This document shows positions 1,792-32,528 of a DNA stretch of 35,931 nt, piece after piece. The stretch's first letter is position 1. The number at the start of each line of letters is the position of its first letter. The notes beneath the pieces are model-generated. The model saw only the letters and a list, made by a program, of their open reading frames with translations, made no database searches and was not told the origin of the DNA. Position numbers and translations under genes: made by a program. Origin of the DNA: Actinomycetota bacterium (lineage in GTDB: Bacteria > Actinomycetota > Thermoleophilia > Gaiellales > Gaiellaceae); contig VAXU01000179.1 of the NCBI GenBank assembly GCA_005885125.1, forward strand, positions 1 to 35,931, in the 5' to 3' direction.

Positions 1792-2893
1792 GCGGCGGCG
1801 CGCCGGCGACCTTCGAGCAATCCACCTTCTTCCGCGCGATCGTCGAGACGACGTCCCGGAACGCGAGAAAGGACGGCTTGCGCGTCCCGTTCGTGTAGAG
1901 CACGCCCGACTGCCAGCCGACGAGCCGGTGCTCGTCGATCAGCTCGAAGTTGAAGAACGCGCCGACGGCCGGCTGGCAGTACGCGAGGTAGACGGCGTCG
2001 CGCAATTGGGCGGCCTGCGATGTGCCGTCGCCGATCGGCGGGATGACGAACGGATCGTTCTCGCGGCCGGTGTAGAGATAGCGAAGCAGCGGCGGAACCG
2101 CGGTCTGAAACCCGTCCTCGAGGTACCAGAGCGTCGGCCACTCGGCGCTCGGCAGAGGCTGTCCGGTGAACTGGAACGCCTGCGTGAGCGCATCCACGAG
2201 CGTCGCGTAGTCGCCCTCGCCGATCGTGCCGGTCGACGGATGGGGGACCCACGGGAACTCGGACGCCGTCTCGGGGTACGGGTTGTGCCCGAACGTGTCG
2301 ACGATCGGGCGCACGCGACCCGAGTCGCGGTACGCCTCGCCGAGCGAAAGGATGAAGCCGGCCGGGTCGTAGTGCGAGGCCGTCGAGTCGATCACGTTCA
2401 CTCGGTGCCGGAGGCGGTGGAGCATGTCCCAGCACCTGGCGAGCAGCTTCTCGTACGCGAGTGCTCCCGCGCTACTCGGCCAGTAGCGCGGCGAGTTTGC
2501 CTCGTTCCAGATCACGACGCCCGCGATCTTCGGAATGACCGCGAGCACGTGATGCACGTACGAGCAGTACTGACTGCGCGCCACGGCGTCGACCGGCGCC
2601 TCCGACGCCGGGCCGTACACGGCGATGACGATCTCCTGCCCGAGGACGATTGCCTTCGCCGCGCGGCTTAGGTAGATCTGGGAAACGGGCCGCGGCCGGA
2701 GCTCGCCCCGGCGCCAGGGGATCGTGATCCGCGTCGTCCGCACGCCGAGGTCATGCTGGACTCCGACAACGCCGTTCGGCCGCGTCATCCACTTGAGCGT
2801 GTCGTCGTCGAACCCGAGGCGTAGGTTCGGGGACGCCGACGCAGCCGGTGCCAGCGCGAGAACGGCGAGAACGGCGGGGACGAGTCGTGACAC
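1760..2893 (-). CDS. Secreted clan-A-like glycoside hydrolase
   Basis: The 377-aa product has a Sec signal peptide (about 1-20, cleavage after ASA). Its TIM-barrel-like sequence contains GVVIWNEAN with Asn130-Glu131, the acid/base signature of clan GH-A hydrolases (GH5/GH39-like). LWYLEDGF with Glu259 is a candidate nucleophile at the position expected on strand 7. HNPYPE near residue 203 fits a substrate-cleft strand. The substrate is unknown. The C-terminal tail is Pro-rich (PPPSPGPAP). The start is GTG 2893; the stop overlaps the lipoprotein gene by 32 bp. It lies 85 bp downstream of glyS on the same strand. The exact GH family cannot be fixed by eye. Confidence 0.75.
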   Translation of the reverse strand: MSRLVPAVLAVLALAPAASASPNLRLGFDDDTLKWMTRPNGVVGVQHDLGVRTTRITIPWRRGELRPRPVSQIYLSRAAKAIVLGQEIVIAVYGPASEAPVDAVARSQYCSYVHHVLAVIPKIAGVVIWNEANSPRYWPSSAGALAYEKLLARCWDMLHRLRHRVNVIDSTASHYDPAGFILSLGEAYRDSGRVRPIVDTFGHNPYPETASEFPWVPHPSTGTIGEGDYATLVDALTQAFQFTGQPLPSAEWPTLWYLEDGFQTAVPPLLRYLYTGRENDPFVIPPIGDGTSQAAQLRDAVYLAYCQPAVGAFFNFELIDEHRLVGWQSGVLYTNGTRKPSFLAFRDVVSTIARKKVDCSKVAGAPPPSPGPAPRSP

Positions 2894-2978
2894 AGAAAGA
2901 AGGCGCAGAGGGGAGGGTGATCCTCTTTCGGCGGCTCGGCCGCGTCAAGAGAGACCTCGCACGGGGGATCCGGATGGA

Positions 2979-4355
2979 CTATCCAGGCTTGGGCGTGTGC
3001 CACGGACGCTCGAGCGCGTCGTCGAGCCACTCGCGCACGCCGTCGATCGGCAGCCGCTCCTGCGCGAGCGAGTCGCGGTCCCGGACGGTGACGGTGTCGT
3101 CCGCGAGCGTCTGCTCGTCGATCGTGAACGCGAACGGCGTCCCGATCTCGTCCTGGCGGCGGTAGCGCCGGCCGATCGCTCCGTTGTCGTCGTACTCGAC
3201 GATGTGACGGCGGCGGAGCCCCTCGTACAGCGCCCGGGCCTTCGTGACCATCCTCTCGTCCTTCGCGATCAGGGGGAGGACTGCGGCCTTTACCGGCGCA
3301 ATCTGCGGATGGAAACGCAGGACCGTCCGTTGTCGCCCGGCGACGTCCTCCTCGTCGTAGGCGTCGACGAGGAACGCCAGGAAAGCGCGATCGGCTCCTC
3401 CTGCGGGCTCGATCACGTGCGGGACGTAACGCTCGCCTGTCGCGCTGTCGACGAACTCGAGCTTCGCCCCGGAGTGCTCCGTGTGCTGCGTCAGATCGAA
3501 GGAGCCGCGGTTTGCAATCCCTTCGAGCTCGGACCAGCCGAACGGGAGGAGGTACTCGATGTCGCTGGTCGCGCTCGAGTAGTGCGAGAGCTCGTCGGCT
3601 TCGTGCGGGCGTATGCGCAAGTGACTCTCACGGATGCCGTAGCGGGTGTACCAGTCGAACCGCTCCTTGACCCAGTACTCGTACCACTGGTCCGCCTTAT
3701 CCGGCGGCACGAAGTACTCCATCTCCATCTGCTCGAACTCGCGCGTTCGAAAGAGGAAGTTGCCGGGCGTGATCTCGTTGCGGAACGACTTGCCGATCTG
3801 CGCGATGCCGAACGGCGGTTTACGCCGGGCGAGCTGGAGGACGTTCTTGAAATTGACGAAGATGCCCTGCGCCGTCTCGGGTCGAAGGTAGGCGGCCACC
3901 CCGGTCTCCTCGACCGCGCCGAGGCGCGTCTCGAGCATCAGGTTGAACTGACGGGCCTCGGTGAGATCGCACTCGGGCGTCCCACCGGGGTGCTTGCTCG
4001 GCTTGCGGCCACAGTGCTCCTCCTCGAGCTTGTCGGCGCGGAACCGGAGCTTGCAAGTCCTGCAATCCACGAGCGGGTCGGTGAAGCCGGCAACGTGGCC
4101 TGAGGCCTCCCAGACGGACGGATTGAGGATGATCGCCGAATCGAGCGCGACGATGTCGTCCCGCTCCTGGACCATCGCCTCCAGCCAGCGCGCCTTGACG
4201 TTGTTCTTTGCGAGGACGCCGTAGTGCCCGTAGTCGTACGCCGAGCCGAGGCCCCCGTAGATCTCCGAACTGGGAAAGACGAACCCGCGGCGGCGGGCGA
4301 GCGAGACGATCTTGTCCATCGTCACGGTGTCCGCGCGCGGCTCGGTCTCGGCCAT
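2979..4355 (-). CDS. glyS: Glycyl-tRNA synthetase, single-chain alpha2 type
   Basis: This class II synthetase charges tRNA-Gly with glycine. The 458-aa length fits the bacterial/archaeal homodimeric type, not the alpha/beta form. The N-terminus has FVFPSSEIYGGLGSAYDYGHYG. A metal-binding insertion follows with CRTC near residues 98-101 and later HCG and PEC. RPETAQGIFVNF is conserved, motif 2 is GKSFRNEITPGNFLFRTREF, and motif 3 is near GGADRAFLAFL. The C-terminal anticodon-binding domain starts around HPQIAPVKAAVLPLI. It looks intact. Start ATG 4355 is preceded by TAGAGT-CCCGGG, a -10 box only 6 nt away, so the transcript is probably leaderless. I see no T-box leader. Confidence 0.97.
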   Translation of the reverse strand: MAETEPRADTVTMDKIVSLARRRGFVFPSSEIYGGLGSAYDYGHYGVLAKNNVKARWLEAMVQERDDIVALDSAIILNPSVWEASGHVAGFTDPLVDCRTCKLRFRADKLEEEHCGRKPSKHPGGTPECDLTEARQFNLMLETRLGAVEETGVAAYLRPETAQGIFVNFKNVLQLARRKPPFGIAQIGKSFRNEITPGNFLFRTREFEQMEMEYFVPPDKADQWYEYWVKERFDWYTRYGIRESHLRIRPHEADELSHYSSATSDIEYLLPFGWSELEGIANRGSFDLTQHTEHSGAKLEFVDSATGERYVPHVIEPAGGADRAFLAFLVDAYDEEDVAGRQRTVLRFHPQIAPVKAAVLPLIAKDERMVTKARALYEGLRRRHIVEYDDNGAIGRRYRRQDEIGTPFAFTIDEQTLADDTVTVRDRDSLAQERLPIDGVREWLDDALERPWHTPKPG

Positions 4356-27546: not shown

Positions 27547-28851
27547 ATGGCCATGGTCGCGAGCCGCGCTGCGGAGTCCTTCGTCATCGAAGGCGGCCGC
27601 CCCCTGAACGGAACGATCCGTGCTGCAGGCAACAAGAACGGCGCGCTTCCGATCCTCGCCGCGTGCCTCTTGACGGACGAGCCCGTGAAGCTGACGAACG
27701 TCCCGCACATTCGCGACGTCGAGACGATGATGGAGCTGCTCGCCGACCTCGGCGCGGACGTCGACTGGGCCGGGCCGAACGAGATCCGCGTCCAGGCGGG
27801 CTCTCTGACCTCGCACGAGCTCGACGCCGCGCTTGCCAGCCGGATCCGCGCGTCGTTTCTGCTCGCCGGGCCGTTGCTCGCGCGCGCCGGCCGCGCAATC
27901 GTTCCGCCTCCCGGCGGCGACGTGATCGGACGCCGGCGCCTCGATCCGCACATTCATGCGCTGACGGAGCTCGGCGCGGAGATCGAGCTGAACGGTCGCT
28001 ACGAGATGCGAACGGACGGCCTGCGCGGAAAGCACGTCTTCCTGGACGAGGCGAGCGTGATGGCGACCGAGAACGCCGTCATGGCGGCGTCGCTAGCCCG
28101 GGGCGAGACCGTGATCGGCAACGCAGCGTGCGAGCCGCACATCCAGGATCTCTGCCGCTTCCTCGTCGCGCTCGGTGCGCAGATCGAGGGGATCGCATCG
28201 AACGTCCTGCGCATTCAGGGTGTCGAGCGGCTCCGCGGTGGGGAGTGGGCGATTGCGTCCGACCATATCGAGGTGTGCAGCTTCATCGGCCTTGCGGCCG
28301 TCACCCGCGGGGACGTGACGATCGTCGACGTGGCGCGAGAAGACCTGGCCCCGATCGTTCCCACGTTCAAGCGTCTCGGGGTGCGGGTGGAGCTGGGCGA
28401 CCGGTCGCTTCGCGTCCCGCCGGATCAGGAACTCGCGATCCAGGACGATCTCGGCGGGCAGATTCCCAAGATCGAGGACGGGCCGTGGCCTGCGTTTCCC
28501 GCCGACCTGACGTCGATCGCCCTCGCCGTCGCGACGCAGGCGCGCGGGACGATCCTGATCTTCGAGAAGATGTTCGAGAACCGGTTGTTCTTCGTCGACA
28601 AGCTCGTGTCGATGGGCGCGCGCATCATCCTGTGCGACCCGCACCGCGCCGTCGTGACGGGGCCGGCGAAGCTGTTCGGCCAGCAGATGGCGAGCCCGGA
28701 CATCCGCGCGGGCATGGCGATGCTGATCGCGAGCCTCTGTGCGGAGGGCACGTCGACGATCGGAAACGTCGCCGAGATCGATCGCGGCTACGAGCGAATC
28801 GACGAGCGCCTACGCGCGCTCGGCGCGCAGATCGAGCGCGTCGATACCTAG
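27547..28851 (+). CDS. murA: UDP-N-acetylglucosamine 1-carboxyvinyltransferase (MurA), Asp-type active site
   Basis: MurA transfers enolpyruvate from PEP to UDP-GlcNAc, the first committed step of peptidoglycan synthesis in the cytoplasm. The 434-aa product has the two-domain fold signatures: FVIEGGRPLNGTIRAAGNKNGALP (Lys30-Asn31), NVPHIRDVETMMELL, the active-site loop PPPGGDVIGRRRLDPHI, FPADLTSIALAVATQARGTI and QMASPDIRAGMAMLIASL. The loop residue that is Cys115 in E. coli is Asp125 here (GAC 27919-27921), as in mycobacterial and chlamydial enzymes that are insensitive to fosfomycin. Length and order are complete. Its stop shares CTAG (28848-28851) with the convergent subtilase gene. Confidence 0.95.
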   Translation: MAMVASRAAESFVIEGGRPLNGTIRAAGNKNGALPILAACLLTDEPVKLTNVPHIRDVETMMELLADLGADVDWAGPNEIRVQAGSLTSHELDAALASRIRASFLLAGPLLARAGRAIVPPPGGDVIGRRRLDPHIHALTELGAEIELNGRYEMRTDGLRGKHVFLDEASVMATENAVMAASLARGETVIGNAACEPHIQDLCRFLVALGAQIEGIASNVLRIQGVERLRGGEWAIASDHIEVCSFIGLAAVTRGDVTIVDVAREDLAPIVPTFKRLGVRVELGDRSLRVPPDQELAIQDDLGGQIPKIEDGPWPAFPADLTSIALAVATQARGTILIFEKMFENRLFFVDKLVSMGARIILCDPHRAVVTGPAKLFGQQMASPDIRAGMAMLIASLCAEGTSTIGNVAEIDRGYERIDERLRALGAQIERVDT

Positions 28852-30338
28852 AACTTGAACGAGTAGTTCGTCGTCGCCGACACGGCGCCGGTCGCATCGA
28901 GTGCGTCCACGGTGAACGCGTAGCGGTGCCGGCGGCGAACCGTCACCGAGGCCGACGTCGTCGTCGTGTTGTCGACCAGCACACGAGTCTTCCCGCGATC
29001 GATGCGGAGCGAGACGCGATAGCGAGTTGCGGCGGTGCTGAACCACTGGAACCGGAACCGAGTACCCGAGCGCAGGCCGTGCACGACCAGACCGTTCTTC
29101 CCCTGCGCACGGGCGACGGCGCCGGCGGCGTCGAGCACGCCGAACCCCGTCTCCGGATTCCAGGCCCCATGGCCGGAGGCCGTCTCCTTCAGGATCGTCG
29201 CGACTTCGGTGGCGCGCAGGAACGGATTCGCGCCCATGACGAGGGCGGCTGCGCCGACGACTTCGGGCGTGGCGAACGACGTCCCCGAGGAGTAGCCGTA
29301 GAGGCCCGCAGTCGATCCGGGCAGCGTGGCGCGCGGATACTCATCGGGTGAGGAGAGCGACGAAAGTGCACCGAACACGTCCAGGCCGGGGGCGACGAGC
29401 GAGAGCTGCGTCCCGGCATTGGAGAAGAACGCCCGCGAGCCGTCCGATGTCGATGCACCAACCGCGAGGCCTGTGCCGCCGCGGCCCTTCGACCCGGCCG
29501 GCTGCAGCAGAGCGGCCGGGTATTCGATCGGATTCCCCATCGTGTACTCGTTGCCGACGGCAGCGACGATCAGAACGTTGTGCTGGGCGGCGTAGGCAAC
29601 GGCCCGCTGCTCGGTGGCCGAGCTCGTCGGGCCTCCGACGCTCAGGTTGATGACCCGCGCGCCGTGATCCACCGCGTACATGATCCCGTTCGACTCGTCG
29701 AGGTCGGTGAGCGTACCGTCGTCGCGCGTCGCCTTGATGACGAGCAATTGGGCGTCGCCGCCGAAGCCTGCGACCCCGTCGCCGTTTGCGACGGAACCGG
29801 CGGCGAGGGACGAGACGAACGTGCCGTGGCCGTTGACGTCACGAATGTCGGGACCGCCCGTGAAGATGTTGTACGTCCACGGAGATTTCGCGGCCAGATC
29901 CGGCGCCGAGAGGTCCGCGCCCGTGTCGATGACCGCGATCTTCACCGCTCCCGCCGCACGCAGGACTTCGGGCGGAACGGCGTCCTCGTGCGTGGCGGCG
30001 AACTGCCATTCGTAGGGCGTTCCCGCGCTGGTCGTCGGGAAGAGCGCGGGCTCGCTGTAGAAGCTGCGCGACAGCACGCGCTCGACGTAGCGGATGCCGT
30101 CGACCCGGCGCGCCGCCGCGGCGAAGCCGTCGACGCGCGGACGGACTTCCGCCACGCGCAGACGCGGCACGAGACGGACGACTTCTGCACGGCCGCCGGC
30201 GACAGCGCGGGCCAGGTCGGCCTCGGACCGGTAGCCGACCGAGAGCAGCGGACGGTTGGGACGCTGTGCAGCGCTTGCACCCGTGGGGAGCGCGCACGAA
30301 AGCCCCACGGCTGCGAGACAAACGGCAAGGGGTCGCAT
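28848..30338 (-). CDS. Secreted subtilisin-family (S8) serine protease
   Basis: The product (496 aa from ATG 30338) has a signal peptide (MRPLAVCLAAVGLSCALPTGASA), an inhibitor-like prodomain (about 25-105) and a subtilase domain. The triad is Asp138 in IAVIDTGAD, His171 in NGHGTFVSS and Ser354 in SGTSFATPEVVGAAAL, with Asn263 (AVGNEY) as the oxyanion residue. A C-terminal domain of about 100 residues (from LVVHGLRSGTRFRFQW) looks like a beta-sandwich of FN3/PPC type. It should be an exported endopeptidase. Alternative in-frame ATGs lie at 30353 and 30356. The stop overlaps that of murA (CTAG). Confidence 0.9.
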   Translation of the reverse strand: MRPLAVCLAAVGLSCALPTGASAAQRPNRPLLSVGYRSEADLARAVAGGRAEVVRLVPRLRVAEVRPRVDGFAAAARRVDGIRYVERVLSRSFYSEPALFPTTSAGTPYEWQFAATHEDAVPPEVLRAAGAVKIAVIDTGADLSAPDLAAKSPWTYNIFTGGPDIRDVNGHGTFVSSLAAGSVANGDGVAGFGGDAQLLVIKATRDDGTLTDLDESNGIMYAVDHGARVINLSVGGPTSSATEQRAVAYAAQHNVLIVAAVGNEYTMGNPIEYPAALLQPAGSKGRGGTGLAVGASTSDGSRAFFSNAGTQLSLVAPGLDVFGALSSLSSPDEYPRATLPGSTAGLYGYSSGTSFATPEVVGAAALVMGANPFLRATEVATILKETASGHGAWNPETGFGVLDAAGAVARAQGKNGLVVHGLRSGTRFRFQWFSTAATRYRVSLRIDRGKTRVLVDNTTTTSASVTVRRRHRYAFTVDALDATGAVSATTNYSFKF

Positions 30339-30397
30339 GCGATCTGTGTCCATCATCGGCCTGGCCTCGGCTGACCTTAAGGCCTCGAGCCCTCCGG

Positions 30398-30411: not shown

Positions 30412-30939
30412 ATGGCGGCTACCGGCCAGGGACGCACGAGCGTGAGGGTCAACGTCACCGGCACGGGCAAGGCCAGCGTCGAGACCGGGATCTCCGTCCT
30501 CGACCACCTCGTCTCCCTGCTCGCGACCTACGCCTCCTTCGACATCGCGCTCGAGGTCGAGCCCGGGAACGCAGACGCCGAGATCGTCGGCGCGGCCCGC
30601 GCTCTCGGGGAGTCCCTAGCCGCGCCGCTCCGGGCCAAGGGCGTGCGCGGCCACGGCGCGGCCATCCTCCCGGCCGACGAGGCCCTCGCCAACGTCGTGC
30701 TGGAGGTCTCGGACCGCCCGGCGGTGTTCTCGAACGTCGACCTCTCCCAGGCGCGGGTGGGCGGGCTTGCGACGGACGTCGCAGCTCGGTTCCTCGACCA
30801 GCTCACCGAGAGCGCCGGACTGACGGTGCACGTCCGCCTGATCGAGGGCAGCGACACGCAGCACGTGCTGGAAGCGATCTTCAAGGCGCTGGGTGTTGCG
30901 CTCGCCGAAGCGTGTCGTCCGCGGAAGGATGGGCAGTGA
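30412..30939 (+). CDS. Imidazoleglycerol-phosphate dehydratase-like protein lacking the HHxxED metal motif
   Basis: The 175-aa product follows the HisB fold order: VETGISVLDHLVSLLATYASFDIALEV, ILPADEALANVVLEVSDRPAVF (compare PMDEAL...DLSGRP), FLDQLTESAGLTVHVRLIEGSDTQHVLEAIFKALGVAL. HisB normally carries D-x-HHxxED and N-x-HHxxE to bind two Mn ions. Here the first motif is absent (GNADAEIVGAARALGESL in its place) and the second is DTQHVLEAIFK, keeping His151, Glu154 and Lys158 but not the first His. His32 and His140 are retained. The N-terminal RxTxET stretch is also missing. Histidine-pathway dehydration is therefore doubtful; it may be a repurposed paralogue. It is coupled to ridA by a GTGA overlap. 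Confidence 0.75.
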   Translation: MAATGQGRTSVRVNVTGTGKASVETGISVLDHLVSLLATYASFDIALEVEPGNADAEIVGAARALGESLAAPLRAKGVRGHGAAILPADEALANVVLEVSDRPAVFSNVDLSQARVGGLATDVAARFLDQLTESAGLTVHVRLIEGSDTQHVLEAIFKALGVALAEACRPRKDGQ

Positions 30940-31334
30940 CGGCCAAGGACGTCGTTCGCACGGAGGCCGCCCCGGCGCCGTTCCAGGGTGCGCCGTACTC
31001 GCAGGCGATCAAGGCGGGTGCGTTCGTGTTCGTGTCCGGCCAGCTCGCGCTCGAACCCGGACACACCGAGCTTCAGGGCGGCTCGATCCAGGAGCAGACG
31101 GAGCAAGTGTTCGCGAACCTGCGCGCGATCCTCGAAGAGGCCGGAAGCAGTCTCGAGCACCTCGTGAAGACGACGGTCTTTCTTCAGAACCTCGACGACT
31201 TCCAGGGGATGAACGAGGTCTACACACGCCATGTCGGCGACCGGCCGCCGGCACGATCGACCGTCGAGGTCGCACGGCTTCCATCCGGCGCGCTCGTCGA
31301 GATCGAAGCGGTCGCGCTGCTCTCGGATTCGTAG
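30936..31334 (+). CDS. ridA: RidA family (reactive enamine/imine deaminase)
   Basis: RidA proteins hydrolyse reactive 2-aminoacrylate-type enamines/imines released by PLP enzymes, as cytoplasmic trimers. The 132-aa product has APYSQAIKAGAFVFVSGQLAL, a QTEQVFANLRAILEEAGSSLEHLVKTTVFLQNLDDFQGMNEVY core, and DRPPARSTVEVARLPSGALVEIEAVAL with the conserved Arg and Glu of the active-site cleft. GTG 30936 overlaps the hisB-like stop and follows a GGAAGGA ribosome-binding site about 8 nt upstream; longer in-frame starts exist but homology begins here. Context suggests the two proteins act on related metabolites. Confidence 0.92.
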   Translation: MTAKDVVRTEAAPAPFQGAPYSQAIKAGAFVFVSGQLALEPGHTELQGGSIQEQTEQVFANLRAILEEAGSSLEHLVKTTVFLQNLDDFQGMNEVYTRHVGDRPPARSTVEVARLPSGALVEIEAVALLSDS

Positions 31335-31340
31335 CCGGCG

Positions 31341-32528
31341 ATGAAGCTCGCGCGTGAGCTGAGCGAGCTCGAGCGCTTCGGGCCGCTGCTCGATGCGCTT
31401 CCCGGGCCTTCGTACCTCGTCGGCGGCACCGTGCGCGACCTGCTGCTGGGACGGCCGCCGAGGTTCGACTTCGATCTCGCGGTGGTCGGAGAAGCCGAGA
31501 GCTACGCGCAGCATCTCGCCGAGCGGCTCGGCGGCCGTGTGACGACCCACGGCCGGTTCGGCACGGCACAGGTGCGCTACGGCACCACGCACATCGATGT
31601 GACGACAGCGCGGACGGAGACGTACGCTGCGCCCGCGGCGCTGCCGGACGTGGCGCCTGCCGAGACGATCGAGGACGATCTTCGGCGACGCGACTTCACG
31701 ATCAATGCGATGGCGATCGCGCTGCCCGACGCCGACCTCATCGATCCGCTCCAGGGCGAGCAGCATCTGCGCGAGAAGCTCGTGCGCGTCCTGCACGAGC
31801 GGTCGTTCGTCGACGATCCCACGCGCATCTTCAGAGCAGCGCGATACGAGACGCGGCTCGGCTTTCGGATGGACCCGAAGACGGAGACCCTCGCGCTGCT
31901 GGCTGCGCCCGACACGCGTCTGCTGTCCGGTGCGCGCATTCGCGAGGAGCTGTTCGCGATCCTCGAGGAGGACGAGCCCGAGCGCACGCTCGCCCGCCTG
32001 CACGCGTTCGGCGTCGACCGGGCCCTCGGGGTCGAGTTTCCGGCCGGGCCGACGGGTCTCCAGGATCGCCTGCGCCGGCTGAACGACGCGTATGGGCTCG
32101 GTTTGCCGCGGTGGCATCTCGGACTGTTGTCCGTGCGGGGCCCCGACGGATGGCTCGACGACCTCAAGGTGATCCGGCGCGTTGCGGACGACGTCCAGGC
32201 TGCGCACCGGGAGGAGCCGTTCCTGCGGGTCGCGCTCGCAGGCGGGGGGCACACGCCCGCCGAGATCGTCGAGGCAGTCGAGCAGAGCGGCCCGGACACG
32301 CCGGTGTACGCACTCGCGTCCGCGGAGTTGCCGGCTCTGCGCCGCTACTTCGAGCGCCTACGCGGCGTGCAGCTCGAAGTCGACGGTGACGATCTGATGG
32401 CGCTCGGGCTCGCCGAGTCGCCGCGGGTCGGCGAGGTGCTCGGGGAGCTCCGCCGGCGGAAGCTGAACGGGGAGCTCCCGAGCCGCGCGGAAGAGCTCGC
32501 CGCGGCGCGGGAGCTGATCACGGAGTGA
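31341..32528 (+). CDS. cca: CCA-adding/poly(A) polymerase family tRNA nucleotidyltransferase
   Basis: This class II nucleotidyltransferase builds or repairs the 3' CCA of tRNAs. The 395-aa product has the head-domain signature YLVGGTVRDLLLGRPPRFDFDLAVVG (GG motif and DxD), TAQVRYGTTHIDVTTARTETY, then DDLRRRDFTINAMAIALPD and the neck LIDPLQGEQHLREKLVRVLHERSFVDDPTRIFRAARYETRLGF. The C-terminal body is helical and less conserved. It lacks an HD domain. It could be an A-adding or CC-adding subtype, which sequence alone does not settle. The stop overlaps the next start (GTGA). Confidence 0.88.
   Translation: MKLARELSELERFGPLLDALPGPSYLVGGTVRDLLLGRPPRFDFDLAVVGEAESYAQHLAERLGGRVTTHGRFGTAQVRYGTTHIDVTTARTETYAAPAALPDVAPAETIEDDLRRRDFTINAMAIALPDADLIDPLQGEQHLREKLVRVLHERSFVDDPTRIFRAARYETRLGFRMDPKTETLALLAAPDTRLLSGARIREELFAILEEDEPERTLARLHAFGVDRALGVEFPAGPTGLQDRLRRLNDAYGLGLPRWHLGLLSVRGPDGWLDDLKVIRRVADDVQAAHREEPFLRVALAGGGHTPAEIVEAVEQSGPDTPVYALASAELPALRRYFERLRGVQLEVDGDDLMALGLAESPRVGEVLGELRRRKLNGELPSRAEELAAARELITE

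Follow-up and report, generated by a model that had tools for sequence, protein, structure and literature searches.

The window analyzed here, a stretch of 35,931 nucleotides of contig VAXU01000179.1 from a Gaiellaceae assembly (GCA_005885125.1), carries a gene for a HisB-like protein whose end runs into the start of ridA. For this pseudo-imidazoleglycerol-phosphate dehydratase (pseudo-IGPD) we use the name HisBp. The features of the locus are as follows, with positions counted in the window.

27547..28851, plus strand: murA, upstream border of the slot, present in 61 of the 63 loci compared
28848..30339, minus strand: S8 (subtilisin-like) protease with a signal peptide, read from its translation; outside the unit, with a homologue in 19 of 63 loci
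30412..30939, plus strand: HisBp gene, 175 aa, ATG start, identified from profile matches, alignment and an AlphaFold model
30574..30591, plus strand: site of the lost HHTxED metal motif, codons 55-60, DAEIVG in the alignment
30829..30831, plus strand: codon 140, His equivalent to the metal ligand H145 of Arabidopsis IGPD2, in 63 of 63 copies
30859..30864, plus strand: codons 150-151, QH at the second HHxxE site; 150 is never His, 151 (H170 equivalent) is His in 63 of 63
30883..30885, plus strand: codon 158, Lys equivalent to the phosphate-binding K177, Lys in 62 of 63 copies
30936..30939, plus strand: four-base GTGA overlap, read from the sequence, of the HisBp stop (TGA) and the ridA start (GTG); ATGA or GTGA in relatives
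30936..31334, plus strand: ridA, archetypal Rid family (TIGR00004, 151.9 bits against a cut-off of 106.25)
31341..32528, plus strand: PcnB/CCA-adding enzyme-like gene, named from its translation, downstream border of the slot

The divergent S8 protease sits between murA and HisBp in the window, so that a separate promoter for HisBp and ridA is probably located in the short stretch just ahead of 30412. The four-base overlap with an intact ridA is as the original prediction described it, and the start position of HisBp and the kind of overlap are the same in its close relatives.

The IGPD fold that had been read from the letters of this open reading frame is borne out by both profile and structure. 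Pfam IGPD spans the whole protein (102.6 bits against a cut-off of 27), and the AlphaFold model (pLDDT 90.7, pTM 0.87) shows the IGPD fold in its entirety, matching IGPD 8qax with a TM of 0.88, a Z of 25.9 and 32% identity in a structure search, in which Z against IGPD structures ranged from 21.7 to 25.9. Weak Foldseek/VIA matches of the model to ribosomal proteins and YicC (Z <8) were left aside. None of the NCBIfam HisB equivalog cut-offs is reached: the best score is 115.4 against 231, and the lowest cut-off, 189, compares with a score of 103.5. Set against IGPD/HisB (PF00475, EC 4.2.1.19; 4mu0, 2f1d, 8qax), HisBp shares the complete fold, DEAL and the His of LHV, and retains the second His and the Lys of HHxxEAxFK, but is without HHxxED, the first His of the second HHxxE, the catalytic Glu, R99 and the STKG tail, and is unlinked to histidine synthesis.

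In Arabidopsis IGPD2, Mn1 is bound by H47, H74, H169 and E173 (PMC4509728) and Mn2 by H73, E77, H145 and H170 (PMC4509728, Table 2), while E21 is the base and Q51, H55, R99 and K177 form the phosphate site (PMC4509728). We tabulated the residues of 63 full-length HisBp copies by this numbering. The absence of HHxxED, of the first His of the second HHxxE (QHVLE in the window) and of the RxTxET Glu, noted earlier for 30412-30939, is seen in the alignment, and the loss of metal residues extends to the orthologues: the equivalents of H73, H74 and H169 are missing from 63 of 63 copies, neither His position of HHTxED holds a His in any of them, and none has an intact HHxxED. The full set of eight Mn ligands (H47, H73, H74, E77, H145, H169, H170 and E173) is thus absent from HisBp, with only H145 and H170 invariant; E77 is lost in 58 of 63 copies, and H47 is kept in 49 and E173 in 38. 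The first-His position of HHxxED is Glu or Asp in 49 of 63. The catalytic E21 is a Gln in the window, and nine of the 63 copies have Glu in the matching column, which falls in a loosely aligned N-terminal part. R99 is lost in 58 of 63 copies and the STKG tail in all, such that the substrate phosphate site and C-loop (R99, K177, STKG) are not present as a set; the Glu of DEAL (E90 in the window) is kept in 62. Half of the old IGPD pocket, comprising H140, H151, K158 and E90, is still present in HisBp.

HisBp is a family-wide feature. Among 60 related genomes searched, most members of family f1 (Gaiellaceae) have a short IGPD homologue, and several also have a second, canonical HisB. A scan of GTDB contigs found HisBp at 67 other Gaiellaceae-type loci with 47-94% identity, below which identity falls to 37% or less and all matches are ordinary HisB with HHxxED. 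Similarly, when 299 genomes of the class were scanned with a HisBp profile, all matches of at least 196 bits lay in f1; the next reached at most 160 bits and were mostly from other families, and the 13 of these that were read all carry HHTVED or HHTTED and are canonical HisB. HisBp sequences form one clade in the tree (100/100 support). The pair with ridA is not a chance arrangement, because the same pair occurs at 67 related loci. Two complete Gaiellaceae loci lie on contigs titled Acidobacteriota and Burkholderiales (L089, L131), probably from misnamed bins, and one close relative (G006, loci L054/L138) has a frameshifted HisB-like gene, which reflects genuine decay or a fault in the assembly.

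The distribution of HisBp was compared with that of the histidine pathway in 33 Gaiellaceae genomes, 28 of them HisBp carriers, with a match threshold of 30 bits for HisA/HisF. Eleven genomes have HisBp together with HisA/HisF, HisD and a canonical HisB; 17 have HisBp with no canonical HisB and no HisA/HisF match above 30 bits, and among these HisD occurs in just three, and no HisG is present. The pathway without HisBp is seen in three genomes, and in two both are missing. The 17 carriers without the pathway include the window's genome (77% complete) and others of 94-97% completeness. HisBp and the his pathway are thus distributed independently, and HisBp does not serve histidine synthesis, because 17 of its 28 carriers, the window's genome included, are without HisG, HisA/HisF and canonical HisB. 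Many Gaiellaceae (G000, G106, G079, G090, G179 and others), some of them 94-97% complete, are without HisG, HisA/HisF and canonical HisB; judged by gene content, such genomes are histidine auxotrophs, and close relatives have the whole pathway. Literature searches on auxotrophy in Gaiella or Gaiellales returned nothing. In the Gaiellaceae genome G018 (L066, reverse complement 2194-3798) a single open frame of 534 aa joins the canonical HisB to HisC, and long open frames around other Gaiellaceae canonical HisB copies suggest the same fusion.

Two explanations that would deprive HisBp of a new role can be weighed against these data. That the genome relies on HisBp as its active HisB, with an unusual set of ligands, is barely credible: the window's genome (77% complete) does have no other hisB or IGPD match, but it has no HisG, HisA, HisF or HisD either, and 11 relatives carry a canonical HisB as well. 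With the pathway genes missing we rejected this reading; the expectation of a canonical hisB elsewhere in the genome holds for those relatives and fails for the window's own genome. A decaying relic without function at the protein level, or a mere leader bringing ribosomes to ridA, would accord with the history of the slot, with losses in some genomes and with the frameshifted copy in G006. Against it, pairwise dN/dS of HisBp among nine genus-level relatives is 0.06-0.31, as low as that of MurA and RidA, 13 columns do not vary across 56 copies whose identity to the window is 46-92%, the fold is well predicted, and a leader would not need its protein sequence. We consider it very improbable and rejected decay on dN/dS and conservation, in agreement with the original prediction of a maintained HisB homologue with an altered function.

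The origin of HisBp can be approached through what occupies the murA-ridA slot elsewhere. Another family of the class, f5 (L202, L203, L204), has the gene order aminotransferase-murA-HisG-HisD-HisB-HisH-HisA-HisF-ridA-pcnB-yfiH-yggS-sepF, in which the HisA call was inferred from the weaker of two matches to a HisF query, and a HisZ-like gene was read between murA and HisG in L202. In sister family f2, hisD is the only his gene between murA and ridA (L214 2081-3235, L215 3724-4854), and its known catalytic residues look intact by reading. Gaiellaceae without HisBp have murA and ridA about 15-145 bases apart. The slot of sister family f3 holds no HisB, with a peptidase-like gene in two genomes (DmpA/P1-type by reading; L211 2431-3561, L212 2491-3669) and an unrelated open reading frame in a third; a slot insert common to f3 and the HisBp loci was therefore rejected, as the f3 content is unrelated to HisB. 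HisB of other Thermoleophilia families (for example L193 in G061 and L190 in G139), which in f5 lies in the same murA-ridA slot, shares the segments N-x-D-L, GG-x-x-T-D and LHxRL with HisBp, most clearly in L190, but unlike HisBp it has intact metal sites and an intact his operon around it. That HisBp arose recently by duplication of the canonical HisB of its own family is weakly rejected (p-AU 0.024). Grouping HisBp with all order-level canonical HisBs stays compatible (p-AU 0.35), so that descent from the slot's his operon, the simplest history, rests on synteny, which the tree neither contradicts nor proves.

The same slot bears on the relation to RidA, an ordinary member of its family (TIGR00004, PF01042) whose sole oddity found is its neighbor. 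Its active-site residues, Y17, N88, R105 and E120 in RidA numbering, are kept in 32 of 32 loci for Y, N and R and in 29 of 32 for E. The original prediction had ridA follow HisBp, and at 67 of 67 loci it is indeed the next gene, in many cases overlapping by four bases. The two genes are never more than 170 bases apart in 63 loci, and gaps of more than 400 bases occur upstream of HisBp in 22 of 61 loci and downstream of RidA in 19 of 58, counts in which the events are not independent. RidA is a trimer, and IGPD without its metal is trimeric in several species. These observations would suit a single functional unit, such as a pair of associated trimers, with HisBp placing RidA on an imine or enamine intermediate or regulating its action there. 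However, the adjacency is explicable by descent, because in f5 the slot upstream of ridA is filled by a complete his operon, and the link to ridA is at least partly an inherited position. Several Gaiellaceae keep RidA without HisBp; in the RidA tree the HisBp-bearing loci form one clade that includes two loci without HisBp, which are probably secondary losses. Nor did we find co-variation of HisBp and RidA beyond their common species history: the partial correlation of their distances is 0.08, lower than the values with YggS or SepF. The claim that the neighborhood reveals the two genes working together is thus not upheld, and literature searches on HisB with RidA found nothing. A complex with RidA draws no support from co-variation, and we regard the functional unit as unlikely.

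A new one-metal enzyme is another candidate, in which the two retained His and the acid at the first-His position of HHxxED would make up a two-His-one-carboxylate site. In its favor, both His are invariant while H47 and E173 drift, and in IGPD both bind the same Mn (PMC4509728), one of them from a neighboring subunit (PMC10978614). The acid, however, is missing from 14 of 63 copies, its position is at the beginning of a helix, a place where acidic residues are frequent, and no conserved catalytic base replaces E21, which leaves such an enzyme distinctly improbable. We give only slightly more credence to HisBp as a previously undescribed IGPD-fold class, a pseudo-IGPD or single-metal enzyme with a non-histidine function that would sit trimer-on-trimer with RidA, and think it rather improbable.

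Instead, we propose, with reasonable though far from full confidence, that HisBp is a pseudo-IGPD and the last survivor of an ancestral murA-ridA his operon, now a non-catalytic, trimeric ligand-binding protein coupled to RidA. The predicted fold, the residues lost and retained, the conservation and selection, the independence from the his pathway and the synteny of the slot are the observations on which this proposal is built. An ancestral his operon would have stood between murA and ridA, its HisB degenerating into HisBp as the other his genes of the slot were lost in Gaiellaceae, where the remaining histidine synthesis would run from a separate his operon. Because the first metal half-site and the catalytic Glu are gone, HisBp is expected to be unable to dehydrate imidazoleglycerol phosphate. 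Without bridging Mn sites it would also stay a trimer and not form a 24-mer cage. Removal of Mn yields inactive trimers of IGPD from several species, but one plant enzyme keeps its assembly in the presence of EDTA (PMC10978614); a trimer is by this analogy the expected state of HisBp, not a certain one. The retained half pocket, with its two invariant His, phosphate Lys and DEAL Glu, may bind a small anionic or imidazole-like metabolite, and translational coupling would have HisBp made together with RidA, with selection keeping it for a non-histidine role. As far as sequence can tell, a non-catalytic trimeric ligand-binder is the most likely nature of the protein.

The established picture of HisB is of a 24-mer enzyme, bridged by metal and serving a single purpose, and the open literature searched yielded no paper on a conserved metal-less HisB or a HisB pseudoenzyme. 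HisBp genes should not be annotated as hisB or counted as evidence of histidine synthesis. Across the Gaiellaceae a pseudo-IGPD is strongly selected, including in species without histidine-synthesis genes, and its origin in an eroded his operon can still be seen; HisBp is as such a clean natural case of a dispensable pathway enzyme kept for another purpose.
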